A stretch of 56,841 bases of DNA from a virus, in IMG/VR virus record IMGVR_UViG_3300023116_000057, positions 1 to 56,841 of that record; one strand, written 5' to 3'. Positions 11,597 to 56,841 of the stretch are shown here, piece by piece; the stretch's first letter is position 1; each line of letters begins with the position of its first letter. The translations under genes were made by a program, and so were the position numbers. The notes beneath the pieces were generated by a model. The model did not search any database. It was not told where the DNA came from and saw nothing but the letters and a program-made list of their open reading frames with translations.

Positions 11597-12008
11597 GGGG
11601 TTGCAAAGGTTTCGATTGTTTATGTGGATTCTAAAATGCACGTTGAGGTTCTAGGTGGCCTCATTAAAAACCTAGAAAACAATAAATGGCAAAACTTATG
11701 ATGCAAATCAAGTTTGGGATTTTAGTAACATTTTTGTAAACGATTGTGTTTTCCCAAGTATGAGCCAAGAAGTCGTCTTACAAGCATAAGACGCACCTCA
11801 AAATAATATCCTTTGATGTTTTGAGGTAATCTAAAAGGATAGTTGACAATTATTCTCTTTTGAATTGTCAATGAAGTTACAAAAGAGCGATTTCTAATCA
11901 AACCTTGTCTGTAAGGGAATTAGAAATTGTATTCAAATGTACAGAATAAGCGTGTAGAGTTTTTGATGATATATAGATAAGACGTGGGTTCGATTCCCAC
12001 CAACTCCA
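11597..12008 (+). ncRNA. ssrA: tmRNA (transfer-messenger RNA)
   Basis: Rescues stalled ribosomes and tags the nascent chain. The 5' end GGGGTTG pairs with CAACTCC at the 3' end, including the G3-U wobble typical of alanine identity. The T arm is GTGGGTTCGATTCCCAC; CCA is not encoded. Four pseudoknots can be drawn: PK1 (GAGG/CCTC with CTAGGT/ACCTAG), PK2 (ACCTCAAAA/TTTTGAGGT with ATCCTTT/AAAGGAT), PK3 (TTGACAATT/AATTGTCAA with CTCTTTTG/CAAAAGAG) and PK4 (ATTTCTAAT/ATTAGAAAT with CTGTA/TACAG). A helix-5 hairpin GTCTTA/TAAGAC carries the tag stop. It has its own promoter. Such a complete tmRNA in a phage is uncommon. Confidence 0.93.
11688..11789 (+). other. Likely tmRNA tag reading frame (33 codons)
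   Basis: The frame that reaches the TAA inside the helix-5 hairpin, the usual tag stop position, runs from about GGC at 11688, twelve bases after the last PK1 stem. It encodes about 33 residues: it opens GKTYDANQVW, includes VNDCVFPSMSQ and ends VVLQA. A neighbouring frame from GCA at 11689 gives a 16-codon tag that stops at TAA 11737-11739, far from helix 5. The long frame is preferred for stop position and the C-terminal alanine. Most bacterial tags are 8-12 residues and mycoplasma tags are under 30. Confidence 0.5.
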
Positions 12009-33160: not shown

Positions 33161-34723
33161 ATGACAGTACGTTATAAAAACAAATCGGAATTGTACAAAG
33201 AATTGCTGCAAGGTTCGGAACTTCTATCTGAAAATGTCGGATCAACTCTTGGACCAAGAGGACACACAGTGCTTATTGGAGAGAAGGGAAAGAGACCAAT
33301 TATTACAAAAGATGGCGTCACAGTTGCACAGTTTGTAAAGTCTGACAATCCATTTGAACAACTTGCAATTGACGTTATCAAACAATCTTCAGTTCAAACA
33401 AACGTCGAGGCCGGAGATGGGACAACTACTTCTACAATTATTGCAAATGCGATTTTCAAAAAATCACAAAAATACTTGGCAACAGGGGTTCACCCTTTTG
33501 TTCTTAAAAAACAATTTGAAGACGCACTGAAAAAAGCACTCGAAGAGGTTGAAAAAATCTCTTCTCACGTCGATTCTGCGAACGATATAGAGAGCATTGC
33601 ATATATCTCATCCAATGGAGATAGAATCGCCTCTAGAATCATTCGGGAGGCTGTTGAAAGCGCAGGTCAAGATGGAGCAATCACCATCGATGAGTCACAT
33701 TCTAAGGTAACTAAACTTGATGTTGTAGAAGGCTTCTCGTTCCGTTCTGGATTGTTCAATCAGGCTTTTGTGACAGATGAAAAAAGAGGAGTTGCTAAAC
33801 TAGACAATCCTTTTTTGTTGGTTACAGATAAAAAAATATCAAGTTTGGACGAAATCATGGGTGTTTTAGAGATTGCTGCAAGAGCAAACAGACCCTTGGT
33901 TATGATTGCCGAAGACTTTGAAGGAGAAGCGTTTGGTGCATGTATGTTGAACCAAACGCAAGGAAACATTAAGATCTGTTTGATAAAGGCTCCAAACTAC
34001 GGAGAGGAAAGAAGGAATGTGTTGGAAGATTTAGCAATTTCTTCGGGTGCTAAATTTTTTCGAAGAAGCAATTCGGACGATATATCCAAGGCTGACTTAA
34101 GTTCGTTAGGGACTGCAAAATATTTAGAGAGCAACAAATTTGCGACTATTATTGTTGATTTGAAAGGCGATTTGGACAAAGTCAATCAAAGGATTGATTT
34201 GTTAAAGGAAGAAATGAAGGAAATCGAAAGCCACGAAGAATGTAAAAAAATACAAGAAAGGATTGCTAGGCTTGCCTCGACAGTTGCAATTATAAAGATT
34301 GGTGCTGATACTGAAATCGAAATGATAGAAAAGAGGCATCGTTACGAAGATGCCCTAGAAGCGGTAGTGGCAGCGCAAGACAAAGGTTATGTCCCAGGTG
34401 GAGGTGTCACTCTTTTGAGAATCTCCAACAAGTTGAGAAAAAATAAATTACCTGGGTTTCAAGTTTTTTGCGAAGCCATTGAAGAACCTTTCCGAATTTT
34501 GTGTAAAAATTCGGGAGAAAACTTTCATTCTTTAAAACAAAAAATACTCAGAAAAAAAGATTTCTTTTATGGCTATGATTTTAATAAGCAAAAATATGGC
34601 AATATGGTAGAACTCGGTGTTATAGACCCAACAAAAGTTACAATTGGGGCGATAAAAAATGCTACAAGTTCTGCTTCTACTTTGCTCACAACATCTTATT
34701 CAATCGTTACAGAAGAGGATTAA
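33161..34723 (+). CDS. groEL: GroEL-type chaperonin (520 aa)
   Basis: Folds proteins in an ATP-driven double ring. Conserved motifs include TLGPRGHTVLI (about residues 29-39), ITKDGVTVA, the nucleotide site GDGTTT (85-90), RYEDALEAVVAAQDKG and VPGGGVTLL. Compared with E. coli GroEL (548 aa) the C-terminal GGM tail is missing, and the end is TTSYSIVTEED. The segment after GGGVTL is shorter and diverged. It is a full-length group I-like chaperonin, probably serving a large capsid or replication protein. A GroES-like gene lies at 23141-23410. Confidence 0.94.
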   Translation: MTVRYKNKSELYKELLQGSELLSENVGSTLGPRGHTVLIGEKGKRPIITKDGVTVAQFVKSDNPFEQLAIDVIKQSSVQTNVEAGDGTTTSTIIANAIFKKSQKYLATGVHPFVLKKQFEDALKKALEEVEKISSHVDSANDIESIAYISSNGDRIASRIIREAVESAGQDGAITIDESHSKVTKLDVVEGFSFRSGLFNQAFVTDEKRGVAKLDNPFLLVTDKKISSLDEIMGVLEIAARANRPLVMIAEDFEGEAFGACMLNQTQGNIKICLIKAPNYGEERRNVLEDLAISSGAKFFRRSNSDDISKADLSSLGTAKYLESNKFATIIVDLKGDLDKVNQRIDLLKEEMKEIESHEECKKIQERIARLASTVAIIKIGADTEIEMIEKRHRYEDALEAVVAAQDKGYVPGGGVTLLRISNKLRKNKLPGFQVFCEAIEEPFRILCKNSGENFHSLKQKILRKKDFFYGYDFNKQKYGNMVELGVIDPTKVTIGAIKNATSSASTLLTTSYSIVTEED

Positions 34724-47346: not shown

Positions 47347-47466
47347 ATGATTGATATGCTTGCTCCCCAGCCCTTACTCCCAACACCACACCAACTCGGC
47401 CTCGCCTTTCGCATGTTTCAAACTCAACCAAAGGCAGAGTTTGGGCTTTTACTATCATCGAAATGA
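47347..47466 (+). CDS. Possible small ORF (39 aa)
   Basis: Pro/Leu-rich peptide (MIDMLAPQPLLPTPHQLG start) in the gap after the 142-aa gene. AGGGG lies nine bases before its second ATG (47356). Hydrophobic at both ends. Expression uncertain. Confidence 0.35.
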   Translation: MIDMLAPQPLLPTPHQLGLAFRMFQTQPKAEFGLLLSSK

Positions 47467-47490
47467 ATTGAACTTAGAAAAGGACACCAA

Positions 47491-47577
47491 ATGCAGCAAA
47501 TGACAGAAAAAGAAATTCAAGAATTCATCGAGAAACACAAAGATAAGGCGAAAAGCTCCATATTTTCAAACACATAA
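47491..47577 (+). CDS. Possible small peptide (28 aa)
   Basis: Acidic and basic helical peptide (MTEKEIQEFIEKHKDKAK core) with AAGGA upstream. Ends just before the promoter at 47596. Confidence 0.4.
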   Translation: MQQMTEKEIQEFIEKHKDKAKSSIFSNT

Positions 47578-47595
47578 AAAAAAGAAAAAAAATAC

Positions 47596-47624
47596 TTGAC
47601 ATTCTAAGCCAGATTCACTATCTT
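47596..47624 (+). promoter_or_regulatory. Promoter of leader-cassette type
   Basis: TTGACA at 47596-47601, 17 nt, TATCTT at 47619-47624. Nine bases later the leader hairpin begins. Confidence 0.8.
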
Positions 47625-47633
47625 CAAAACATC

Positions 47634-47649
47634 GAGGTAATGATGCCTC
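47634..47649 (+). promoter_or_regulatory. 5' leader stem-loop
   Basis: GAGGT-AATGAT-GCCTC: five pairs with a closing U-G, six-base loop. It starts near the expected +1. A CCTCC-CA-GGAGG palindrome covers the ribosome-binding site downstream. Confidence 0.65.
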
Positions 47650-47672
47650 CCACAACCTCCCAGGAGGAAAAA

Positions 47673-48131
47673 ATGTCAAAATCTTTCTTCGAAGACGCTC
47701 AAACCATCAAATTTTTCCAACCCCACGTTGACGAGTACAACAAACAGATTGAATCTCTTGTAGAAAGACTAAATCACACGAAAACTCACGATTTGAGAAA
47801 CCATGTACAATGGTTCTTGGACAACCCATCCTCAGTCGAGTTTATCGTTGGTTGCCTCTACAAACAAAAAGGAGGTAGACGCAGAAACCAAATCCCAGCC
47901 AAGAAATTTCCAAAAAACCAAGATTGGAACCTCTCTCGCGTTGTATGGGAACGAGCGCAGTGGCACAACATTATTCCAGGTGGAAGTGCTTCTCTGTGGG
48001 GTCCAATGATGTCAATTGGTCGCATCCCAAAAGAAGACATGGACCGCATCGACACACTTTTCTGCGGTATCGCTGCAATGCATGGATTGTACACTGCAAC
48101 ACACCGATGGAAAGAAGCACTCGGAATGTAA
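47673..48131 (+). CDS. Unknown protein (152 aa)
   Basis: Helical N-terminus, a basic central segment (KQKGGRRRNQIPAKKFPKNQ) and a Trp-rich stretch (WERAQWHNIIPGGSASLWG). Clear GGAGG before ATG 47673. Own promoter with a leader hairpin. Function unknown. Confidence 0.7.
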   Translation: MSKSFFEDAQTIKFFQPHVDEYNKQIESLVERLNHTKTHDLRNHVQWFLDNPSSVEFIVGCLYKQKGGRRRNQIPAKKFPKNQDWNLSRVVWERAQWHNIIPGGSASLWGPMMSIGRIPKEDMDRIDTLFCGIAAMHGLYTATHRWKEALGM

Positions 48132-48148
48132 AAAAATAAAAAAAACAC

Positions 48149-48177
48149 TTGACAACCCAAAACACATTCGTTATCTT
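48149..48177 (+). promoter_or_regulatory. Promoter of leader-cassette type
   Basis: TTGACA at 48149-48154, 17 nt, TATCTT at 48172-48177. Leader nearly identical to the one at 47596. Confidence 0.8.
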
Positions 48178-48186
48178 CAAAACATC

Positions 48187-48202
48187 GAGGCAATGACGCC
48201 TC
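48187..48202 (+). promoter_or_regulatory. 5' leader stem-loop
   Basis: GAGGC-AATGAC-GCCTC, perfect five-base stem and six-base loop, nine bases after the -10 box. Confidence 0.7.
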
Positions 48203-48225
48203 CCACAACCTCCGAGGAGGAAAAA

Positions 48226-48552
48226 ATGGCTTATAAATGGGTAATAACAAAGGATGTCGTCGAGTGCGGAGAATGCGAGGGTGTCATGAACATGTACCCT
48301 CGCCTAAACGAAACCCTAGCAGACGTTGAAGTCTCTGCCAAGGGTGCAAGAATAATGTCAAAACTGTCGAATTCGCAATGGGAATATGTGCGATGGAAAG
48401 CATACTGCGGTGATGGTGAACTCATGTACGAGGGCAAGATGATTATGAGTCCTAGTGCAGACGGCTTCGAGCCATTAGATGACTTCTGTATGCCAAATGC
48501 AGGCGCAACAAGTCTAAAACTATGTGAAAAGGGAAAGTGGTCCTGGTTGTAA
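48226..48552 (+). CDS. Unknown protein (108 aa)
   Basis: Two Cys near the start (VECGECEG) and a beta-rich body (KAYCGDGELMYEGKMIMSPS). GGAGG before ATG 48226. Followed at once by a palindromic terminator-like hairpin. Confidence 0.7.
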   Translation: MAYKWVITKDVVECGECEGVMNMYPRLNETLADVEVSAKGARIMSKLSNSQWEYVRWKAYCGDGELMYEGKMIMSPSADGFEPLDDFCMPNAGATSLKLCEKGKWSWL

Positions 48553-48572
48553 AAATTGAACGGTTCAATTTT
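48552..48572 (+). terminator. Terminator-like palindrome
   Basis: AAAATTGAAC-G-GTTCAATTTT directly after the stop. The core TTGAACGGTTCAA recurs at 48997, so a protein operator is an alternative. Confidence 0.55.
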
Positions 48573-48595
48573 AAGGGGCGTGGGCGCTATGCGAC

Positions 48596-48616
48596 GTAGA
48601 ATAGACTACCTGTATT
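48596..48616 (+). promoter_or_regulatory. Conserved 21-nt upstream element
   Basis: Starts GTAGAATAGACTACC and ends TGTATT; an identical copy lies at 49050-49070. It contains TAGAAT, a possible -10, and a GTAG/CTAC dyad. No TTGACA is suitably placed. Confidence 0.5.
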
Positions 48617-48657
48617 CAAGTGGCGTCAACAACAACTCGAAACAAGAGGTGAGAGCG

Positions 48658-48990
48658 ATGAAAAATTATGTTTCTTCAAAAGGACTCAAGTTCAACAAAA
48701 AACACATTGTGAACCCTTCAGATTATGACCCCAGTGGGACTTGGACAAAGGCATTTTTGCTTCACAATGAATTTGGAACAATTTGTGTTGTCTTTGCGAG
48801 TCATCTGCAAGATGCGCTGGAGATTGCGGTTGATGAGGAAAGGTTTGAATGTCAACGCATCGAAGAGTGCTCTAAGGAGGAGGAGGAATACTACACCCGG
48901 TTGGGGAATTACGGGGATCTCTATGACCTGACTTATGTCGGGTTTGATGTCGTGGATACTCCATTCACAGCAGCGTCGAAACCTTGCTAG
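48658..48990 (+). CDS. Unknown protein (110 aa)
   Basis: Beta-strand-rich (KAFLLHNEFGTICVVFASHL), then an acidic helical part and many Tyr residues. ATG 48658 with GAGGTGA is preferred to the long ORF from 48556, which begins inside the upstream palindrome. Function unknown. Confidence 0.65.
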   Translation: MKNYVSSKGLKFNKKHIVNPSDYDPSGTWTKAFLLHNEFGTICVVFASHLQDALEIAVDEERFECQRIEECSKEEEEYYTRLGNYGDLYDLTYVGFDVVDTPFTAASKPC

Positions 48991-48996
48991 TCTCGC

Positions 48997-49032
48997 TTGA
49001 ACGGTTCAAGAAATTGAACCGTTCAATTTTTT
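48997..49032 (+). terminator. Rho-independent terminator built from TTGAACGGTTCAA arms
   Basis: TTGAACGGTTCAA, loop GAAA, TTGAACCGTTCAA, then six T. Each arm is itself nearly palindromic. Confidence 0.9.
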
Positions 49033-49049
49033 GTGCTTCGGGTGGTCTT

Positions 49050-49070
49050 GTAGAATAGACTACCTGTATT
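49050..49070 (+). promoter_or_regulatory. Conserved 21-nt upstream element, second copy
   Basis: Identical to 48596-48616. It precedes the gene at 49114 by 43 bases. Confidence 0.5.
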
Positions 49071-49113
49071 GAGAGAGCGTAACGACAAACTTCAAAACAC
49101 GGAGAACAAGACA

Positions 49114-49404
49114 ATGATTTTCTCAAAGCCTGTGCCTTTTTCTGGAACTGCAACTTGTTCAGCGCATCTCAAGATCGGGATTTCTCCGGCTGGGACTCGC
49201 TATAACGTCTTTACCGAAGACAAAGAACCCGACGAGGTTCGCATGTACGTTGATGCTTACACGGCAAAACTTCATCGCCTTTGGTCCTCTCACTATGAAA
49301 GATGCTTTTCTCTGGAAAAGAAAGCGAGAAGAGAATCAGCGATGAACCAAGAAATTATCAAAAGTATCAGCGAGTACATTGATAATTTCTCGTCGATTGC
49401 TTGA
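49114..49404 (+). CDS. Unknown protein (96 aa)
   Basis: ATG 49114 with GGAG. N-terminal beta part (SGTATCSAHLKIGISPAGTR), C-terminal helix. No family recognised. Confidence 0.65.
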   Translation: MIFSKPVPFSGTATCSAHLKIGISPAGTRYNVFTEDKEPDEVRMYVDAYTAKLHRLWSSHYERCFSLEKKARRESAMNQEIIKSISEYIDNFSSIA

Positions 49405-49434
49405 AAGTGTGAAAAATAGGAAATAGGAGGTAGT

Positions 49435-49683
49435 ATGTTCGGAATGAAAGATGTGACAGCGTCCCAGTCTCTAGCCGACATTCTGAGGCACTATAAAGCC
49501 ATTGGCAATATACAGGGCAGAGAGAGGCTTCTTTCTCGAACTCTAGACTCGCTGAGGTTTGATTATGGGATGAATTATCCCACAATCTTTGCGATGGCCC
49601 AGCGACTGTCTCCCGGTCTGACCATTGCAGATTGGGAAAACTTAATGATGGAGTTTGAAGATTGGGAGTCGGAATCACGCTAA
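49435..49683 (+). CDS. Unknown small protein (82 aa)
   Basis: Helical, with an acidic C-terminus (MEFEDWESE). AGGAGG before the ATG. No family recognised. Confidence 0.65.
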   Translation: MFGMKDVTASQSLADILRHYKAIGNIQGRERLLSRTLDSLRFDYGMNYPTIFAMAQRLSPGLTIADWENLMMEFEDWESESR

Positions 49684-49704
49684 CAAAACACGGAGAACAA
49701 AACA

Positions 49705-50166
49705 ATGAAAGAAAAACAAAAAATCACTCGCTTCTGTCAAGAACAACTTGATAAATGGAATCTCAGTCAAGAAGGTTGGACACTCAAGTGGAACAAACGA
49801 CGAAAGTCTTGGGGTCTCTGCTGCTATCGAACAAAAACTATTCAACTCTCTGAAAGGTTTTTGTGTCACGGAGAGCAACTGTACGATACGGTTCTCCACG
49901 AAATTGCACATGCTCTCGCTGGACAAAGAGCAGGACATGGACCAATTTGGAAAAGATACGCAAGACAAGTTGGAGCAAACCCATCTAGGACAAAGTCAGC
50001 AAAAAGAACCAAAAAGTTTATGAAAAACATGGACTACAAATATCAATATTCCTGTAATGGGTGCGATAACACCGGAGGATTCTCCAGGCTCACAAACAAA
50101 TGGACTGAAGAAAGAGTCATCTGCACGAAATGTGGCTCTCGCGTTTCTTATCGACAGAGGCGATAA
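49705..50166 (+). CDS. SprT-like zinc metalloprotease (153 aa)
   Basis: The active-site motif is HEIAHALAG (H65, E66, H69) with a third His in AGHGPIW (H78). The C-terminal zinc ribbon has CNGC and CTKC. The domain order matches SprT/Spartan proteases, which act on DNA-crosslinked or DNA-bound proteins. It is short but complete in motifs. GGAG ribosome-binding site upstream. Confidence 0.85.
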   Translation: MKEKQKITRFCQEQLDKWNLSQEGWTLKWNKRRKSWGLCCYRTKTIQLSERFLCHGEQLYDTVLHEIAHALAGQRAGHGPIWKRYARQVGANPSRTKSAKRTKKFMKNMDYKYQYSCNGCDNTGGFSRLTNKWTEERVICTKCGSRVSYRQRR

Positions 50167-50180
50167 GGGACCAAACAGGC

Positions 50181-50246
50181 ATTCTAAGAGCGTTTTGTCT
50201 TGCGCGAGTATCAAGACAAGGCTCAAAGACAAAACGCTCTTAGAAT
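50181..50246. repeat. Long inverted repeat (21-nt arms)
   Basis: Arms 50181-50201 and 50226-50246 are perfectly complementary; within the 24-nt loop, GTCTT/AAGAC can form a competing inner stem. It follows the protease gene; a run of T lies 14 or more bases later, so a simple intrinsic terminator is not certain. Confidence 0.75.
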
Positions 50247-50271
50247 TGCTCTAAATTTGTTATTTTTTTTC

Positions 50272-50300
50272 TTGACATTTTGAAATGAACTTGTTACCTT
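50272..50300 (+). promoter_or_regulatory. Sigma70-type promoter
   Basis: TTGACA at 50272-50277, 17 nt, TACCTT at 50295-50300. The leader has no conserved stem-loop. Confidence 0.75.
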
Positions 50301-50328
50301 GGATTCTCAAGGAAAAAAGGAGTAAGCA

Positions 50329-50535
50329 ATGAAAAAAACAAACGTAGCAATTTTCGAAATCTTTGTTGGACTAGCCATCGGGCTAGTTCTAGCAATCATC
50401 ACACAACTATGCTGGAATAGCAGCATCGCTCCATTAATCGGAGCAAAAAGTTGCAGTTTCTGGCAAGCCTTCGGCATGAATGTCTTCGGCTCAATCGTTT
50501 TCAAAGACACCGTTACTCTCAAAAAGGAATCCTAA
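50329..50535 (+). CDS. Small membrane protein (68 aa)
   Basis: One long N-terminal hydrophobic segment (VAIFEIFVGLAIGLVLAIIT) and a second weaker one near the C-terminus. AAGGAG ribosome-binding site. No family assigned. Confidence 0.65.
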   Translation: MKKTNVAIFEIFVGLAIGLVLAIITQLCWNSSIAPLIGAKSCSFWQAFGMNVFGSIVFKDTVTLKKES

Positions 50536-50536
50536 G

Positions 50537-50803
50537 ATGAAAAAATTGCTAGAAGCAATACGAGAAGACCAACTGGTGGGAATAGGAAGTTGCTCGTCCA
50601 TCTCAGAAGCATATACAGACGAGGAAATCCTGGAATGCTTGGAAGAAAAAAACATCACAACAAAAAATGGTGCGCTGAAATGGGCGCACGATACCGAAGA
50701 ACTGTTTTTGTCATGCCTCACAACCAATTTTGACCTCTACGATGAATCCACGGTCAAGACTTTTTTTGAAGCAAGAAAAAAATATAACTACGAAGAGGAG
50801 TAA
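50537..50803 (+). CDS. Unknown acidic helical protein (88 aa)
   Basis: Helical and acidic (YTDEEILECLEEKNIT). ATG 50537 has AAGGA upstream; the longer ORF from 50480 overlaps the membrane gene and is not used. Confidence 0.65.
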   Translation: MKKLLEAIREDQLVGIGSCSSISEAYTDEEILECLEEKNITTKNGALKWAHDTEELFLSCLTTNFDLYDESTVKTFFEARKKYNYEEE

Positions 50804-50806
50804 ACA

Positions 50807-51169
50807 ATGAGCATCAAAAATCTGGAAATCAGAGAGTCCGAAATGTGTCATATCAACCAAATTGACCACAAATGGCAAAATAGAATGGAATTCCTTCTAT
50901 ACCCAGATGACATAAAATGGGAGTTCGCTGGACATGACCTCGGAGACATTGTCATCGAAAGACTTGCACACCTGCTGTTCGAAAATCCTACAAAATCTTG
51001 GTACTCAAACCACCCAGCGCAAACCGAAAAATTTCGCCAATCCTTCCTTGAGCAGTTCGAAGAAGCACTCTCCAAGTGTACACTACTAGATGATGACTTC
51101 TTCAATAAGAAAAAAAATCTCTCCCTCTTCCTAACCTTCACACCAAGACTTCAAAACCTAAGCTACTAA
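50807..51169 (+). CDS. Unknown protein (120 aa)
   Basis: Mixed helical sequence with HINQIDHKWQNRMEF and a conserved-looking AGHDLGDIVIERLAHL segment. GAGGAG ribosome-binding site. Last gene before the promoter at 51216. Confidence 0.65.
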   Translation: MSIKNLEIRESEMCHINQIDHKWQNRMEFLLYPDDIKWEFAGHDLGDIVIERLAHLLFENPTKSWYSNHPAQTEKFRQSFLEQFEEALSKCTLLDDDFFNKKKNLSLFLTFTPRLQNLSY

Positions 51170-51215
51170 AAACATTGAAGAATAACAATTCCCTCCAAAA
51201 AAAAGAAAAAAACAC

Positions 51216-51244
51216 TTGACTCCGCGCCACACAATGTGTACCTT
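51216..51244 (+). promoter_or_regulatory. Sigma70-type promoter
   Basis: TTGACT at 51216-51221, 17 nt, TACCTT at 51239-51244. The leader is unstructured. Confidence 0.75.
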
Positions 51245-51286
51245 CATAACAAGGCAACAACAACCCACAAACAAAAGGTGAAAACA

Positions 51287-51511
51287 ATGAAGTTTGCAAT
51301 CCTCTACGTTCCACACGATACCGAAGAAGAACCCTGCATCTGCGGTATCTTCAAAAATTGGAGAGCAGCACATGATACGCTCCTCTCCAAAGGATACACA
51401 AACATCGTAAAGCAATCTGGTGAATTCTATACCTCACCAGACCCCAACGAAGATGGCCTCTACACCACAACCAGCATTCCAACAGAAGAAAATATCTTCG
51501 ACCCCATTTAA
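51287..51511 (+). CDS. Unknown small protein (74 aa)
   Basis: Beta-rich start (KFAILYVPHDTEEEPCICG). ATG 51287 with AAAGGTG. Acidic; no family recognised. Confidence 0.65.
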   Translation: MKFAILYVPHDTEEEPCICGIFKNWRAAHDTLLSKGYTNIVKQSGEFYTSPDPNEDGLYTTTSIPTEENIFDPI

Positions 51512-51565
51512 GTTACCAAAAATCACAAGACAACAAAAAAAAAGAAAAAAACACAGGAGAACAAT

Positions 51566-51877
51566 ATGTACAACACATACTATGTCGGACCTTACCTCAC
51601 ATTCAAACACGCCAACAAAGAATGCTACGGCAATTCATACATCGTCGGCATAGCATACGCATTCGACGCATATGGACTCATCGGACCAGAACATAACGGC
51701 ATTTTCGTACTCGACGATACACACAAAGAAGTCGTACTCGACAGACACTCAGAATCAACAACATTCAGAAATGAACCAACTACAACACAACTCGACGAAT
51801 TTAAACGCATCATGAAAATGAATCAAGACGAATTCATCATCTTCATCCAGCAAAACCCACGCTCCAGACTTATGTGA
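51566..51877 (+). CDS. Unknown protein (103 aa)
   Basis: Aromatic N-terminus (YNTYYVGPYLTFKHANKECY), then a helical part. AGGAG before the ATG. The following 210-nt gap holds only a small hairpin (GGGGGT/ACCCC near 51956-51972) and the next promoter. Confidence 0.65.
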   Translation: MYNTYYVGPYLTFKHANKECYGNSYIVGIAYAFDAYGLIGPEHNGIFVLDDTHKEVVLDRHSESTTFRNEPTTTQLDEFKRIMKMNQDEFIIFIQQNPRSRLM

Positions 51878-52008
51878 TAAAATGTTCACAACGCCAAACA
51901 AATAATAAATGAAAAAAAAGAAAAAGTTTTTTCATGGCGTTTCTGTAATTGTTGTGGGGGTTTAAGACCCCTACACACACAAAAGTTACAGAAAATTGAA
52001 AAAAAGTC

Positions 52009-52037
52009 TTGACAAGATGCCCCAGGTCGGTTATATT
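52009..52037 (+). promoter_or_regulatory. Promoter of leader-cassette type
   Basis: TTGACA at 52009-52014, 17 nt, TATATT at 52032-52037. The spacer (AGATGCCCCAGGTCGGT) is nearly shared with the promoter at 52564. Confidence 0.8.
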
Positions 52038-52047
52038 CAAAACATCG

Positions 52048-52063
52048 GAGGCAATAACGCCTC
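52048..52063 (+). promoter_or_regulatory. 5' leader stem-loop
   Basis: GAGGC-AATAAC-GCCTC, perfect stem, six-base loop. Confidence 0.7.
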
Positions 52064-52070
52064 TCAAAAA

Positions 52071-52090
52071 CGTCACAGGAGTTTGTGATG
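52071..52090 (+). promoter_or_regulatory. Start-codon hairpin
   Basis: CGTCAC pairs with GTGATG (one G-U pair); the loop AGGAGTTT exposes the Shine-Dalgarno and the stem includes the ATG of the next gene. Confidence 0.6.
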
Positions 52091-52321
52091 ACTAAGAAAG
52101 AAATGGTTCGACAGTTCGTTCAAAAACAATTCAACAATAATCTGACTTTCGTTACAACCGATGAGGTCAGGCTCAACGTTCCCAGTGTCGCAAAATGGAA
52201 GGATTATCAGATTAAAAAATGCGTACTCCAGGCTGGGGGTTGGCCGAGTGGAAAAGTCATCCTCAGTGTGAAAAACGAGGCTCAGAAAACTCGCGAAAAG
52301 TGGCATTACAAGCGCAGATAA
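52088..52321 (+). CDS. Unknown protein (77 aa)
   Basis: Helical start (MTKKEMVRQFVQKQFNNNLT), basic C-terminus. ATG 52088 lies in the start hairpin. No family recognised. Confidence 0.65.
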   Translation: MTKKEMVRQFVQKQFNNNLTFVTTDEVRLNVPSVAKWKDYQIKKCVLQAGGWPSGKVILSVKNEAQKTREKWHYKRR

Positions 52322-52341
52322 GGCGAGTTGACATCTCACCA

Positions 52342-52425
52342 GTCTCTGTGGTGGAACTGGCAGACACGACAGACTTAAAATCTGTTGCCCTAAAAGGCGT
52401 GAGGGTTCGAATCCCTCCAGAGACA
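52342..52425 (+). tRNA. tRNA-Leu (anticodon TAA)
   Basis: Acceptor GTCTCTG/CAGAGAC, anticodon stem ACAGA/TCTGT with loop CTTAAAA, a class II variable arm, and T arm GAGGGTTCGAATCCCTC. CCA is not encoded. It reads UUA codons, common in this AT-rich genome. Confidence 0.95.
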
Positions 52426-52563
52426 TTCCAAACTTTCTACACGTTGAGCAGTTTTGAGACAAAAAGCAAAGCTCAACGTTTTCAACGACTTAGTTAAACC
52501 TTCTCTATAAGAGAACAACAAGCAGCAGGTTCCAACTTTTTTCACGCAGAGCGACAAAAAGTC

Positions 52564-52592
52564 TTGACAAGATGCTCCAGGTCTGTTATCTT
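52564..52592 (+). promoter_or_regulatory. Promoter of leader-cassette type
   Basis: TTGACA at 52564-52569, 17 nt, TATCTT at 52587-52592. Confidence 0.8.
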
Positions 52593-52602
52593 CAAGGCAT
52601 CG

Positions 52603-52618
52603 GAGGCAATAACGCCTC
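52603..52618 (+). promoter_or_regulatory. 5' leader stem-loop
   Basis: GAGGC-AATAAC-GCCTC, perfect stem, six-base loop. Confidence 0.7.
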
Positions 52619-52625
52619 TCAAAAA

Positions 52626-52645
52626 CATCACAGGAGTTTGTGATG
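52626..52645 (+). promoter_or_regulatory. Start-codon hairpin
   Basis: CATCAC / GTGATG perfect six-base stem, loop AGGAGTTT. Confidence 0.65.
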
Positions 52646-52852
52646 CACTACACATTTGTTAGAGAATTCATTGATACAAACCCAAACCTACTCTCCAAAG
52701 TCATCCGTCTTGTCGAAGACGGAGATTTTGAAGAGTTTGACCGACTCATATTCCACAGACTCTTTTTTGAGGGAGTCTTGAGTGCTGCGTTGTCCCAAAG
52801 TTTGTTCGAACAATACCAATACGAAATTAAAGAAGGTATATTGCCAACATAG
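52643..52852 (+). CDS. Unknown small protein (69 aa)
   Basis: Helical, acidic (RLVEDGDFEEFDRLIFHRLF). Start ATG 52643 in the hairpin. No family recognised. The tRNA-Met gene follows 13 bases later. Confidence 0.65.
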   Translation: MHYTFVREFIDTNPNLLSKVIRLVEDGDFEEFDRLIFHRLFFEGVLSAALSQSLFEQYQYEIKEGILPT

Positions 52853-52864
52853 TCTCAGAAAATC

Positions 52865-52938
52865 GGACCCGTAGTTCAGATGGTTAGAACTCCCGGCTCA
52901 TAACCGGGTGGTCCTCGGTTCGAATCCGAGCGGGTCCA
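52865..52938 (+). tRNA. tRNA-Met (anticodon CAT)
   Basis: Acceptor GGACCCG/CGGGTCC, anticodon loop CTCATAA, T arm CTCGGTTCGAATCCGAG. The G1-C72 pair indicates an elongator rather than an initiator; a tRNA-Ile2 with modified CAT remains possible. CCA is not encoded. Confidence 0.95.
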
Positions 52939-52944
52939 CAAAAC

Positions 52945-52991
52945 GCTCCCCTTTGCTGGTAAACTCCTAAAAAAACAAAGCAAAGGGGAGC
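52945..52991 (+). terminator. Hairpin after tRNA-Met
   Basis: GCTCCCCTTTGCT pairs with AGCAAAGGGGAGC over 13 bp; the following run is AATTTCTCTC, so termination or tRNA processing are both possible. Confidence 0.6.
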
Positions 52992-53006
52992 AATTTCTCT
53001 CTCAAC

Positions 53007-53160
53007 ATTCCAAACTTTCTACACGACAAGCGATTTTCCTCCAAAAAGCAAAGCTCAATATTTTCAACGACTTAGATAGACCCTTCCCATAAGAGAACAA
53101 TAAGCAGCAGGTTTCAACTTTTTTCACGCGGAGTGAAAAAAAGTGTTGACAAGACACCCC
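53007..53160. repeat. tRNA-linked promoter repeat, copy 2
   Basis: Related to 52427-52600: shared CCAAACTTTCTACACG, AAAGCAAAGCTCAA, TTTTCAACGACTTAG and AAGCAGCAGGTT segments in the same order. Confidence 0.7.
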
Positions 53161-53174
53161 AGTTTGATTATTGT
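53146..53174 (+). promoter_or_regulatory. Promoter of leader-cassette type
   Basis: TTGACA at 53146-53151, 17 nt, TATTGT at 53169-53174. Confidence 0.75.
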
Positions 53175-53183
53175 TGAATTCAC

Positions 53184-53199
53184 GGAGCAATGACGCTCC
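53184..53199 (+). promoter_or_regulatory. 5' leader stem-loop
   Basis: GGAGC-AATGAC-GCTCC: same shape as the others with a different stem sequence. Confidence 0.7.
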
Positions 53200-53218
53200 C
53201 AAATGAAAGGAAAAAACG

Positions 53219-53425
53219 ATGAGACAACGAAAACTGAACAGGACAAGCCTGGGCTGGGCCGTCCACAACCTGATCGCACACCCTCTATCTGAGATGTTGT
53301 GGGTGTGCGCGTTCGTCCTGGAGGCACTCTGTCTGCCGAATCTAGCAGACAGAACCGAGGATCTGGGCCATTGGGTCCACGACGTTACTGTACCTGAACA
53401 CGAGCCAGGCACAGGAAGAGGGTGA
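53219..53425 (+). CDS. Unknown small protein (68 aa)
   Basis: Contains GWAVHNLIAHPLSEMLW, a motif I recall from small phage proteins of unknown role, with a hydrophobic centre. AAAGGA ribosome-binding site. Higher GC than most of the window. Confidence 0.7.
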   Translation: MRQRKLNRTSLGWAVHNLIAHPLSEMLWVCAFVLEALCLPNLADRTEDLGHWVHDVTVPEHEPGTGRG

Positions 53426-53430
53426 CGACG

Positions 53431-53505
53431 ATGACATGGTTCTACTTTTGGGAGTGGCTCTTCAGCCTCTTGGCAGCAGGTTTCAACTTTTTTCACGCGG
53501 AGTGA
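53431..53505 (+). CDS. Possible small membrane peptide (24 aa)
   Basis: MTWFYFWEWLFSLLAAGFNF start, ending FHAE. The ORF runs into the second copy of the 120-nt repeat. GAGGGTGA stands upstream. Possibly real, possibly chance. Confidence 0.4.
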   Translation: MTWFYFWEWLFSLLAAGFNFFHAE

Positions 53506-53514
53506 AAAAAAGTA

Positions 53515-53543
53515 TTGACAAGACACCCCAGTTTGATTATTGT
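53515..53543 (+). promoter_or_regulatory. Promoter of leader-cassette type
   Basis: TTGACA at 53515-53520, 17 nt, TATTGT at 53538-53543. Confidence 0.75.
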
Positions 53544-53552
53544 TGAATTCAC

Positions 53553-53568
53553 GGAGCAATGACGCTCC
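53553..53568 (+). promoter_or_regulatory. 5' leader stem-loop
   Basis: GGAGC-AATGAC-GCTCC, copy of the one at 53184. Confidence 0.7.
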
Positions 53569-53587
53569 CAAATGAAAGGAAAAAACG

Positions 53588-53782
53588 ATGAGCAAATGGT
53601 ATTTTGGGTACGTTGTTTGTCATGATGCGGAAATCATGACGTGGGATGTAAGCCTGAAGATGGCAGCGGAATACATTGAAAGTTCCGATTGGCATCTAAT
53701 CGATGATGGCAGCGAGGTCCACAAAGATGACCTTGATATTATGCCAATCGAAGAGTATGAAATGCTCTTTGGTCCAGGGTGA
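53588..53782 (+). CDS. Unknown small acidic protein (64 aa)
   Basis: Compact sequence (WYFGYVVCHDAEIMTWDVSL start region), acidic C-terminal half. Start and leader come from the duplicated promoter cassette, but the protein is unrelated to that of the first copy. Confidence 0.65.
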   Translation: MSKWYFGYVVCHDAEIMTWDVSLKMAAEYIESSDWHLIDDGSEVHKDDLDIMPIEEYEMLFGPG

Positions 53783-53853
53783 AAAGAGTAAAAAGAGGTC
53801 TCCACAGAGTTTCCAGGTACAAGTCCTAATCTTTCTTATAAAAAGGAATAAAA

Positions 53854-54009
53854 ATGAAGAAGTTAACAGGCATGATAGAGTCCCTTGTAACTGCAATGGA
53901 AACTTTTTTATTGGTCACTGTAACAACGTTGTTTGCGATTGGAATCGCAACTCCGTTCGGATTGCTTGTTTATGCCATATGGCGATATTTTATCGTTATT
54001 GTCTTGTAA
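53854..54009 (+). CDS. Small membrane protein (51 aa)
   Basis: One long hydrophobic region (FLLVTVTTLFAIGIATPFGL) and a second C-terminal segment (YFIVIVL). AAAAGGA ribosome-binding site. No family recognised. Confidence 0.65.
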   Translation: MKKLTGMIESLVTAMETFLLVTVTTLFAIGIATPFGLLVYAIWRYFIVIVL

Positions 54010-54034
54010 GGTGAAAAAAAAAGAAAAAAAAGTG

Positions 54035-54063
54035 TTGACAAGAGGCTCCAGGTTGATTATTGT
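54035..54063 (+). promoter_or_regulatory. Promoter of leader-cassette type
   Basis: TTGACA at 54035-54040, 17 nt, TATTGT at 54058-54063. Confidence 0.75.
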
Positions 54064-54072
54064 TGAATTCAC

Positions 54073-54088
54073 GGAGCAATGATGTTCC
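54073..54088 (+). promoter_or_regulatory. 5' leader stem-loop
   Basis: GGAGC-AATGAT-GTTCC: compared with 53184 the changed base keeps pairing as G-U. Confidence 0.65.
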
Positions 54089-54092
54089 CAAA

Positions 54093-54114
54093 CATCACAA
54101 AGGAGAAAGTGATG
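54093..54114 (+). promoter_or_regulatory. Start-codon hairpin
   Basis: CATCAC / GTGATG stem, loop AAAGGAGAAA; the ATG of the helicase is in the stem. Confidence 0.65.
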
Positions 54115-55599
54115 AAACCATCGAAATACCAGGAAGCAATCGCCAACGCCATCACCACCAACACAGGGAACCTGCAAGTCGGGGCCGTCGCAGGTTCCGG
54201 CAAGTCAACCACCTTGGCTCAAGTAGTTGCTCCCAGACTTTCCGGGACAACCTGTTTTCTGGCTTTTAACAAAGCCATCGCGACCGAATTGGGCAACAAA
54301 CTGCCCAAAGGAACAGAGGCGAAAACAATCCACTCACTCGCCTATGGTCCTGTGAGAAGGAGATACAAGCAAACAAAGGTGGAAGGGCGTAAATACGCCA
54401 CGATCGTGGGGGATTTTTTGGAGCATCTTCCAGGTGCATCTGCTTCTGTTGTCAATTTAATTGACAATGGAGCCGACTTGCGCTCCCCGTTGGTCAAGAT
54501 GATCGATTTGGTGAGAAATACTCTCACCAACCCAGAGGACGACAAAGCAGTGATTAATCTCGCAAATCACTACGATGTCGAAATGCCAACAGGGAGTCTG
54601 TTGGAGTATTTTTTCGTCGCTCTGAACAAAATCCTGGCTGCCGGTCGCGCAGAATCAAAATTCTGGCTGGATTTTACCGACATGTTGTGGCTTGCTGCCA
54701 CTGACCCAACAATCCAGCCCAAAAAATACGACTGGCTACTTATCGACGAGTGTCAAGACTTGTCAAAGGCGCAACTGGCTGTTGTCTCAAAGGCTCTTAA
54801 GCCAGGAGGTCGAGCAGTTTTTGCTGGGGATGCTCGACAAGCCATTAATGGCTTTGCCGGGGCCGATTGTGACAGTTTTATGAACATTCACAAAGAAATG
54901 GATACCACCATCCTGCCTCTGACCATTTGTTACCGCTGCGATGCCTCCATCATCCGGGAGGCTCAAAAGATTGTCCCGGAAATCGAGGCTCGCGAGGGCG
55001 CAGCAGAGGGAAGTGTCTCCAGCATTTCAGAGGAAAAATTCAGCCCTGTTGAGGGTGACATGGTTCTCTGCCGAACTAATGCTCCCCTCGTAAGCCTTTG
55101 TTTTCGCTTGATTTCAGAGGGCAAGCCTGCTCGAATCAAAGGTCGTGACATCGGCGCAGGTCTCATCTCAACAGCAAAAAAAATAACAAAAAAACGAGGG
55201 TTTGCTGCTTTGGGTTGGGAGAACTTTGGCGAGGCTGTTCAGCAATGGCTCCAAGCCGAGCGTGTTAAACTGGAAAAGAGAAAAGCCGACGAAGGTCGTT
55301 TTCAGGCTCTCTCCGACAGAGCAGAGTGCTTGACGGTCATCTGGTCGTCTTCGACAATAAACACGCTTAGGGACTTCGAGAAGACTGTTAAAGGCATTTT
55401 CTCTGATGACCGTCCCGGCATCCAACTGTCGAGTGTACACCGCTCCAAAGGTCTCGAAAACGAGCGTGTATACATTATCCGTCCTGAACTACTCCCCGGA
55501 CCCTGGGCAGAGGAAGGAACGTGGCAGTATGAGCAGGAAATCAACCTGAAATATGTCGCGATAACAAGAGCGAAACATGAACTCGTTTGGGTTCGCTAA
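54112..55599 (+). CDS. UvrD/Rep-like superfamily 1 helicase (495 aa)
   Basis: ATP-dependent DNA unwinding. Walker A is GAVAGSGKSTT (about residues 24-34), then TFLAFNKAIA-like motif Ia region, motif II LLIDECQDLSKAQ, FAGDARQAINGFAGAD (motif III), CYRCDASI (motif IV), and the C-terminal IQLSSVHRSKGLENERVYII and YVAITRAKHELVWV (motifs V and VI). At 495 aa it is smaller than UvrD (720 aa), lacking much of the 1B/2B insertions. GC content is clearly higher than in the left part, suggesting a different origin. It has its own promoter, leader and start hairpin. Confidence 0.9.
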   Translation: MKPSKYQEAIANAITTNTGNLQVGAVAGSGKSTTLAQVVAPRLSGTTCFLAFNKAIATELGNKLPKGTEAKTIHSLAYGPVRRRYKQTKVEGRKYATIVGDFLEHLPGASASVVNLIDNGADLRSPLVKMIDLVRNTLTNPEDDKAVINLANHYDVEMPTGSLLEYFFVALNKILAAGRAESKFWLDFTDMLWLAATDPTIQPKKYDWLLIDECQDLSKAQLAVVSKALKPGGRAVFAGDARQAINGFAGADCDSFMNIHKEMDTTILPLTICYRCDASIIREAQKIVPEIEAREGAAEGSVSSISEEKFSPVEGDMVLCRTNAPLVSLCFRLISEGKPARIKGRDIGAGLISTAKKITKKRGFAALGWENFGEAVQQWLQAERVKLEKRKADEGRFQALSDRAECLTVIWSSSTINTLRDFEKTVKGIFSDDRPGIQLSSVHRSKGLENERVYIIRPELLPGPWAEEGTWQYEQEINLKYVAITRAKHELVWVR

Positions 55600-55604
55600 C
55601 CTCC

Positions 55605-55760
55605 CTCCCAGCATCCTCCCAGCATCCTCCCACAATCCTCTCCAGAAAATCCTCTCCAGAAAATCCTCTCCAGAAAAACGAGCCTCCAGAAAATTGTCTC
55701 CAGAAAAACGAGCCTACAGAAAAACCTCCTCAGAAAAACGAGCCTCCAGAAAATTGTCTA
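55605..55760. repeat. Tandem repeat array (left)
   Basis: Degenerate repeats of CATCCTCCCAG, then TCTCCAGAAAATCC and CCAGAAAAACGAGCC, beginning just after the helicase stop. Homologous to the array at 56164-56280. Confidence 0.85.
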
Positions 55761-55808
55761 GCAAAATCAAGCTCTTGAAAGTTTTTTCTCCCCCAGGTGC
55801 ATTTTTTG

Positions 55809-55837
55809 TTGACAACCTCCGCTGGCTTTGATATGCT
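55809..55837 (+). promoter_or_regulatory. Promoter of leader-cassette type
   Basis: TTGACA at 55809-55814, 17 nt, TATGCT at 55832-55837. The sequence before it (TTTTTCTCCCCCAGGTGCAT) recurs before the promoter at 56335. Confidence 0.75.
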
Positions 55838-55845
55838 TTGAACTC

Positions 55846-55861
55846 GTCGCAATGTTGCGAC
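55846..55861 (+). promoter_or_regulatory. 5' leader stem-loop
   Basis: GTCGC-AATGTT-GCGAC: stem sequence completely different from the others but still five perfect pairs around a six-base AAU loop. Confidence 0.7.
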
Positions 55862-55866
55862 CCAAA

Positions 55867-55888
55867 CATCACAAAGGAGAACGTGATG
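55867..55888 (+). promoter_or_regulatory. Start-codon hairpin
   Basis: CATCAC / GTGATG stem, loop AAAGGAGAAC. Confidence 0.65.
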
Positions 55889-56161
55889 AAAAGAGGAACG
55901 CTTTACCTGCTTCATTTTTCCCGACCCCTCAGCCATGCCAAGCACTACCTTGGCTTTACCACACGAACACCCGAAGACCGTCTTCGAGAACACCTCGAAG
56001 GCAAAGGCTCACCACTGGTTAAGGCAGCGGTCGAGGCAGGAATCGACGTGACCATATCTCGCACCTGGCGAGATAAAACACGCTCCGACGAGCGTTCTCT
56101 GAAAAACCAAAAAAACGGCCCCAGGCTCTGCCCCTGCTGTAACCCTCGCCTTAAAGAGTAG
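55886..56161 (+). CDS. Small GIY-YIG domain protein (91 aa)
   Basis: The GIY-YIG core is visible: GTLYLLHFSRPLSHAKHYLG, then RLREHLEGKGSPLVKAAVEA, and TISRTWRDKTRSDERSLK, with CPCC near the end. It resembles the single-domain UvrC/YhbQ type rather than the homing endonuclease at 9810. Catalytic Arg is probably in RLREH. The gene lies between two homologous repeat arrays. Confidence 0.75.
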   Translation: MKRGTLYLLHFSRPLSHAKHYLGFTTRTPEDRLREHLEGKGSPLVKAAVEAGIDVTISRTWRDKTRSDERSLKNQKNGPRLCPCCNPRLKE

Positions 56162-56163
56162 CA

Positions 56164-56280
56164 CCCTCCCAGCATCCTCTCCAGAAAATCCACTCCAGAA
56201 AAACGAGCCTTCAGAAAATCCACTCCAGAAAAACGAGCCTTCAGAAAATCCACTCCAGAAAAACGAGCCTTCAGAAAATT
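56164..56280. repeat. Tandem repeat array (right), 30-nt units
   Basis: Three 30-nt units (56191-56220, 56221-56250, 56251-56280) starting CACTCCAGAAAAACGAGCC, the last differing by one base, preceded by a partial unit. Confidence 0.9.
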
Positions 56281-56334
56281 GTCTAACAAAATCAATGGCT
56301 TGCAAGTTTTTTTCTCCCCAGGTGCATTTTCTTC

Positions 56335-56363
56335 TTGACATTTTGGAGAAACGCCTTTAACTT
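56335..56363 (+). promoter_or_regulatory. Promoter of leader-cassette type
   Basis: TTGACA at 56335-56340, 17 nt, TAACTT at 56358-56363 (weak -10). Confidence 0.7.
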
Positions 56364-56371
56364 GGGTGTTC

Positions 56372-56389
56372 CGAGGTAATAACGCCTCG
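56372..56389 (+). promoter_or_regulatory. 5' leader stem-loop
   Basis: CGAGGT-AATAAC-GCCTCG: six pairs including one U-G, six-base loop. Confidence 0.7.
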
Positions 56390-56393
56390 CAAA

Positions 56394-56415
56394 CATCACA
56401 AAGGAGAACGTGATG
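56394..56415 (+). promoter_or_regulatory. Start-codon hairpin
   Basis: CATCAC / GTGATG stem, loop AAAGGAGAAC. Confidence 0.65.
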
Positions 56416-56643
56416 GTCTCAATCATTCAGTTTTCTGTCCTATTCTTTGCAGCAATCGCTGCCTTCATCTTCATCGGGGTGACAATTGCATTCATTCCCG
56501 TGGGAGGTCTAGCAGCGCCCCTGCTGGCTCTTTTCCTCATCGTGGGATCGGCCTCCTACCTTTTGGTAGAGGCCATCATACATAATCCCCGGTTTTTTCT
56601 AGCATCCGGCGTGGGGTGTGTCGCCTTCTTTGTGGGGGTGTAA
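56413..56643 (+). CDS. Small membrane protein (76 aa)
   Basis: Three hydrophobic segments (IIQFSVLFFAAIAAFIFIGV; GGLAAPLLALFLIVGSASYL; FFLASGVGCVAFFVGV). ATG 56413 in the start hairpin. No family recognised. Confidence 0.65.
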   Translation: MVSIIQFSVLFFAAIAAFIFIGVTIAFIPVGGLAAPLLALFLIVGSASYLLVEAIIHNPRFFLASGVGCVAFFVGV

Positions 56644-56644
56644 A

Positions 56645-56713
56645 ATGCTCCTCTTCCTTCTTTGTCTAGCCTGCTTTGTTGGCAGGCTTGCCAGGTTAGA
56701 CGGTCAATTGTAA
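56645..56713 (+). CDS. Possible hydrophobic micropeptide (22 aa)
   Basis: MLLFLLCLACFVGRLARLDG start, one base after the preceding stop. It could be a lipoprotein-like or membrane peptide; the ORF ends at the edge of the terminal repeat. Confidence 0.35.
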   Translation: MLLFLLCLACFVGRLARLDGQL

Positions 56714-56841
56714 GCACACCTCACACCTCAGCAGAGCACACCTCACACCTCACACCTCAGCAGAGCACACCTCACACCTCACACCTCAGCAGAGCACACC
56801 TCACACCTCACACCTCAGCCGAGCACACCTCACACCTCACA
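56714..56841. repeat. 29-nt tandem repeat running off the window end
   Basis: Repeats of a unit starting GCAGAGCACACCTCACACC (29 nt), built from CACACCTCA sub-repeats; one copy has GCCGAG. The array is cut by the window edge. Confidence 0.9.

Follow-up and report, generated by a model that had tools for sequence, protein, structure and literature searches.

In the genome of an uncultivated phage, five unrelated genes start with a near-identical inverted repeat (hp2) that is predicted to fold with the Shine-Dalgarno (SD) sequence in its loop and the AUG in its stem. We propose that hp2 belongs to a promoter-leader cassette that has been duplicated, and that as the ribosome-site part of this cassette it would provide portable, self-insulated translation initiation. 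We assign this reading a probability of roughly 0.4, our confidence being limited because all evidence on the cassettes is in silico and comes from a single genome. The window, that is, the whole stretch of DNA analyzed, is a 56,841-nt (56.8-kb) fragment, IMG/VR record IMGVR_UViG_3300023116_000057. It comes from a large phage with a DnaE-like polymerase, a ribonucleotide reductase, a UvsX-like recombinase, and a phage-encoded GroEL chaperonin (33161-34723; phrog_5725, E 2.9e-127). ARAGORN also called a candidate tmRNA at 11597-12008 with an unusually long tag of 33 residues. The fragment closes with a 29-bp tandem repeat (56715-56841; 4.4 copies, 98%) that runs past the contig end and may be the cause of the assembly stop.

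Exact copies of CATCAC-N8..10-GTGATG are present at four positions on the + strand (52626, 54093, 55867, and 56394), against a mean of 0.02 expected from dinucleotide shuffles of the window. A fifth copy at 52071, CGTCAC-AGGAGTTT-GTGATG, has G52072 opposite U52089, a G-U wobble instead of A-U. Each 3' arm ends in the ATG of an open reading frame (52088, 52643, 54112, 55886, and 56413). Two copies have a half-site spacing of 8 and the other three a spacing of 10. The five genes with an SD loop between CATCAC (or CGTCAC) and GTGATG that the original prediction had listed are thus confirmed as four exact copies and one variant.

52071-52090, + strand: hp2 of the AGGAGTTT type, G-U variant (ATG 52088-52090)
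52626-52645, + strand: hp2 of the AGGAGTTT type (ATG 52643-52645)
54093-54114, + strand: hp2 of the AAAGGAGAAA type (ATG 54112-54114; the gene encodes a UvrD-like helicase)
55867-55888, + strand: hp2 of the AAAGGAGAAC type (ATG 55886-55888; weak GIY-YIG match, below Pfam's cut-off)
56394-56415, + strand: hp2 of the AAAGGAGAAC type (ATG 56413-56415)

The wobble at 52071 does keep the pairing, as had been claimed. Since this single G-U is the only change in an otherwise invariant stem, hp2 has no compensatory support, and because the stem hardly varies, its identity by descent or gene conversion is conceivable; the covariation sits in a neighboring hairpin. The downstream proteins are unrelated, as stated originally: when those of all five hp2 genes and of four genes behind sister cassettes were compared, the best pair among the nine gave an E of 0.04 over 19 residues. 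The recurrence of hp2 on unrelated genes therefore holds for the coding sequences, which are unlike, but not for the independence of the copies, which are parts of duplicated promoter-leader cassettes. The same limit applies to the statistics. The CATCAC arm goes strictly with a GTG before the ATG (5/5 versus 0/4 cassettes; Fisher 0.008 for copies that are not independent). Such an arrangement is found at about 2% of SD-preceded ATG open reading frames in the background (2/93 elsewhere in the window, 6/326 in a distant relative, and 72/3382 in other viral loci among the matches listed, with seeded hits removed) versus 5/9 cassettes. The broad viral pattern listing gives one match per contig and was used as background only. 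A binomial value of 5e-7 for the 5/9 cassettes is overstated, since the hp2 copies share ancestry.

The cassettes, nine in number, are related to one another and lie within 47.6-56.4 kb of the window before unrelated, mostly small genes. In each, TTGACA, which often follows A-rich sequence, is separated by exactly 17 nt from a -10 element; about 8 to 10 nt further on come a first hairpin (hp1), a short spacer, and a ribosome-site element. All nine promoters read TTGACA-17-TAnnnT, with the -10 variants TATATT, TATCTT, TATTGT, TATGCT, and TAACTT. The original prediction had included neither this shared promoter, nor the covarying hp1, nor the four further cassettes that are without hp2.

47596-47624, + strand: promoter of cassette c47, TTGACA-17-TATCTT
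48149-48177, + strand: promoter of c48, TTGACA-17-TATCTT
52009-52037, + strand: promoter of c520, TTGACA-17-TATATT
52564-52592, + strand: promoter of c526, TTGACA-17-TATCTT
53146-53174, + strand: promoter of c531, TTGACA-17-TATTGT (cassette without hp2)
53515-53543, + strand: promoter of c535, TTGACA-17-TATTGT (cassette without hp2)
54035-54063, + strand: promoter of c541, TTGACA-17-TATTGT
55809-55837, + strand: promoter of c558, TTGACA-17-TATGCT
56335-56363, + strand: promoter of c564, TTGACA-17-TAACTT

Three forms of the ribosome-site element follow these promoters: SD in the loop and AUG in the stem (five cassettes, hp2), SD in a stem arm (two), and open (two). The open form, AAATGAAAGGAAAAAACGATG, belongs to c531 and c535. 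The SD-in-stem form, CCTCCC...AGGAGG, in which the 3' arm carries the SD AGGAGG, belongs to c47 and c48.

47646-47667, + strand (listed on the - strand): alternative ribosome-site hairpin of c47, SD in the 3' arm; the c48 counterpart lies at 48199-48220

Judged by eye, hp1 could offer its 3' arm as another partner for the SD of c47 and c48 (47596-48226), an arrangement given a low weight of 0.03 in the model. Several other elements share this region. Two cassette genes are immediately followed by genes for tRNA-Leu (52342-52425) and tRNA-Met (52865-52939), for which the cassette promoters may serve. A further repeated leader (48590-48660 and 49045-49120) places GTAGAATAGACTACCTGTATT before two neighboring genes, and ACGGAGAACAARACAATG precedes the genes at 49114 and 49705. 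When 47400-56841 was searched with the Rfam covariance models, only the two tRNAs reached the gathering score, and no known leader family was found.

The first hairpin, hp1, is a 16- to 18-nt element 5' of the ribosome-site element in all nine cassettes.

52047-52064, + strand: hp1 of c520, GGAGGC-AATAAC-GCCTCT (identical copy in c526, 52602-52619)
53184-53199, + strand: hp1 of c531, GGAGC-AATGAC-GCTCC (identical copy in c535, 53553-53568)
54073-54088, + strand: hp1 of c541, GGAGC-AATGAT-GTTCC
55846-55861, + strand: hp1 of c558, GTCGC-AATGTT-GCGAC
56373-56388, + strand: hp1 of c564, GAGGT-AATAAC-GCCTC (within a 6-bp stem that begins one base earlier)

A 5-bp stem is formed by all seven distinct hp1 sequences, with 100% of the cells paired and six changed on both sides. 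Two pairs vary on both sides, one as AU/GC/UA and the other as GC/AU/CG. Covariation amounted to 0.686, compared with 0.286 in shuffled sequences (0/500 reach the observed value; the shuffles ignore the relatedness of the copies) and at most 0.276 in slid-partner controls. Three-way compensating changes of this kind are hard to obtain through descent alone, and covariation gives good support for an RNA structure at hp1. Its loop begins with AAU in 9/9 copies (AAURAY or AAUGUU). If transcription starts about 7 nt beyond the -10 element, the predicted mRNA enters hp1 within 2 to 3 nt of its 5' end. In this, hp1 resembles the T4 gene 32 leader, which, as cited in PMC8948821, has a stable hairpin near the mRNA 5' end, but the hp1 loop is an AAURAY-like 6-nt loop and not CUUCGG, and the position of hp1 comes from predicted starts. 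A T4 gp43-type operator was also considered, prompted by the UAAC in some hp1 loops (AAUAAC) (PMC3014915), and was rejected; the polymerase here is DnaE-like.

Pairwise comparison of the cassettes showed that their parts differ in kinship. Between c558 and c564 (genes 55886 and 56413), the 100 nt 5' of the promoter are 83% identical. The promoter (48%) and the hp1 region (44%) are at background level, like the coding sequences (45%), while the hp2 region is identical at 25/25 positions (Fisher 1e-5). In c526 and c531, identity is 86% upstream but only 48% in the ribosome-site element; c541 resembles c531 in the promoter (86%) and in hp1 (81%) but has a different ribosome-site element; and a stretch of about 120 nt in c531 recurs in c535 at 99%. 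Because the ribosome-site forms do not track the rest of the cassette, its parts appear to have been exchanged separately or held by selection at unequal rates, so that either way hp2 would be separately identifiable; from their sequences, the elements look mixed among genes. Upstream of c558 and c564, a 157-nt block (88%) is duplicated, which contains 30-bp tandem repeats (CCAGAAAA/CGAGCC units) at 55634-55754 and 56182-56279.

This arrangement recalls the promoter early stem-loops (PeSLs) of T4-type phages, which are promoter-terminator composites (Arbiol 2010, Comeau 2014, as cited in PMC4503421). In the account given in PMC4503421, PeSLs are likewise short units of promoter and stem-loop; they recur among the small genes of a plastic region, where they seem to have been shuffled. 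As described there, they differ from the cassettes, in which the hairpins lie in the transcript leader and the unit extends to the ATG; the likeness is one of description. The nine TTGACA-17-TAnnnT promoters correspond to the repeated sigma-70-type promoter of PeSLs and are presumably early; a terminator stem-loop was not found, as hp1 and hp2 lie 3' of the promoter and have no terminator-like U-tract on the + strand.

Searches in IMG/VR, GTDB genomes, and phage records found no relative of the cassette. Exact leader patterns identified no leader in the IMG/VR and GTDB genomes, and some of the IMG/VR matches had unrelated upstream sequence and mostly were not gene starts. Blastn of three leaders against phages gave chance-level pieces only. 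The polymerase has six relatives in IMG/VR, one contig at 100% and five at 45-46%. The coordinates of the 100% contig stop short of the cassettes, those of the near-identical contig L243 do not extend to the cassette region, and a 205-kb distant relative (polymerase 46%) contains neither the hp2 pattern nor the leader. A helicase search of the relatives was empty. Other phages may have a repeated SD hairpin of different sequence, as the broad scans cover the matches listed.

All folding was computed for 37 °C from transcription starts that are guesses, and everything said here about function is likewise in silico. Isolated hp2 has a ΔG of -7.1 and -7.5 kcal/mol in the AGGAGTTT type versus -4.9 kcal/mol in the 10-nt-loop type, and it folds more stably than shuffled sequences (z -3.3 to -5.1). 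In the AGGAGTTT type, the stem lengthens to 7 to 8 bp (by an A-U and then a G-U pair), so part of the SD can pair, its first base in the stem and the next in the G-U. In a further model, the leaders were joined to the initial 45 nt of each of 72 genes in the window. With the native 5' arm, the GGA of the SD was free at 0.72-0.84 and the AUG was 93-97% paired, compared with 0.34-0.38 and 53-58% when the arm was shuffled, a rough control, as shuffling may itself add pairings. Pairing between the SD and the coding sequence, 0.06-0.16 with the native arm versus 0.36-0.43 with the shuffled one, accounts for most of the lost SD freedom. The model agrees here with the original prediction of an exposed SD and a hidden AUG, a state that is predicted in 2% of 55 other genes. 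Because deletion of hp1 left folding of the hp2 region unchanged, the two hairpins would act apart. In the native context, hp2 of c564 has a probability of 0.0 (another pairing is predicted) and that of c541 0.48; since one pairs otherwise and the other is half folded, the effect of hp2 is statistical only.

We hypothesize that a host-type sigma-70 RNA polymerase initiates a few bases 5' of hp1, and the mRNA would thus start with a stable hairpin that is probably a 5'-end protector. The hp2 element would fold locally, exposing the SD in its loop and pairing the hexamer that ends in AUG with CAUCAC. Because this 5' arm travels with the cassette, it would insulate the ribosome site from the downstream coding sequence, making one leader suitable for any gene. 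The 30S subunit could then dock on the looped SD, melt the weak stem (-4.9 to -7.5 kcal/mol), and reach the AUG. The sequences, the cassette kinship, the hp1 covariation, and the predicted folds on which this scheme builds were observed or computed; we infer from them the transcription starts, folding in vivo, the behavior of the ribosome, and an advantage of insulation. Against insulation as a general property, two cassettes are without hp2 and two have the SD in the stem instead. Locking of the AUG should also carry an initiation cost, which counts against the insulation reading. A wider version, which we regard as tentative and on balance doubtful, is that the phage holds a kit of interchangeable leader parts (a promoter, a 5' protective hairpin, and three ribosome-site forms) mixed between genes, in which the SD-in-loop/AUG-in-stem form would be a dedicated ribosome loader independent of the coding sequence, possibly read by a phage RNA-binding regulator of the whole gene set.

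The main rival to insulation is that hp2 is recognized by a shared RNA-binding regulator, which is possible, if rather doubtful. A phage or host protein would bind the GGA loop and stem as an RNA operator and shut off translation of the gene set in a timed manner, as do CsrA/RsmA, T4 RegA, gp32, and gp43. A near-identical hp2 on five unrelated genes suits a common trans-acting factor, and its primary sequence is kept beyond what pairing alone would need. Like CsrA/RsmA operators of the hcnA and glgC type, hp2 is a start-region hairpin whose loop contains the GGA/SD, the classic layout of a CsrA target (PMC7652899). GGAG is present in 5/5 hp2 loops, although in the AGGAGTTT type one of the G residues may be G-U paired. 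The CsrA consensus is only partial, however. ANGGA occurs in the 10-nt-loop type and is absent from the AGGAGTTT type, and neither an ANGGAN hexaloop nor the RUACARGGAUGU consensus (PMC7652899) was found, the one type having ACAGGAG without the R and the other a 10-nt loop. The loop sequences of the two hp2 types are also unlike. A search for the CsrA protein in this incomplete record and two related ones, in which the positive control responded, found none; for a partial record without an assigned host, this absence counts only weakly against a regulator. For T4 RegA, the operator is an unstructured A+U-rich site with the AUG (PMC3014915), while hp2 is predicted to be structured; the search for the RegA protein had no responding control and was uninformative. 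The RegB cleavage context GGAGRAYARAA (PMC3014915) is not matched by GGAGAAMGUGA or GGAGUUUGUGA, and a RegB protein search gave no match, with its control likewise silent.

Alternatively, hp2 could be functionless, a relic of one ancestral leader that recent duplication or recombination carried along with the cassette. Kinship among the cassettes is evident, as between c531 and c535, hp2 shows no compensatory change, and no relative was found in which its conservation could be compared. We nevertheless consider this unlikely. The c558 and c564 cassettes hold hp2 intact with promoter and hp1 at background, both arms are kept in two loop types despite differing loop length and sequence, and the 5' arm is not otherwise required for initiation.

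The predicted pairing of the AUG over the 72 coding contexts would also suit a simple brake, by which hiding the AUG lowers translation of strongly transcribed genes with no insulation. In T4, too, the efficiency of initiation is set by local helices, which either include the start codon or the SD or occupy the interval between the two; such structures are inhibitory in genes e, soc, 49, and I-TevI and promoting in 38 and 25, and that of gene e is missing from transcripts of nearer late promoters (PMC3014915). Each of these T4 genes has a structure of its own, whereas here one element lies on five genes, 3' of its own promoter. A brake appears improbable, as the SD is exposed rather than hidden, -4.9 kcal/mol is a weak barrier, and strong repression should place the SD in the stem, which is the arrangement of c47 and c48. 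Finally, a perfect dyad about +26 to +46 from the predicted start at five promoters could act as DNA, as the operator of a dimeric repressor just 3' of the promoter, but this is very unlikely because the half-site spacing varies by 2 (a rotation of about 70 degrees), and the change at 52072 breaks the DNA symmetry while keeping the RNA pair, and in all copies the arms enclose the SD and the repeat terminates precisely with the ATG.

If the insulated-start reading is true, the hp2 cassette would be a natural standardized translation start that gives equal ribosome access whatever gene follows. It would be relevant to the uptake of new genes by phages with no retuning of individual ribosome sites, and to whether an SD exposed in a loop can overcome a paired AUG.
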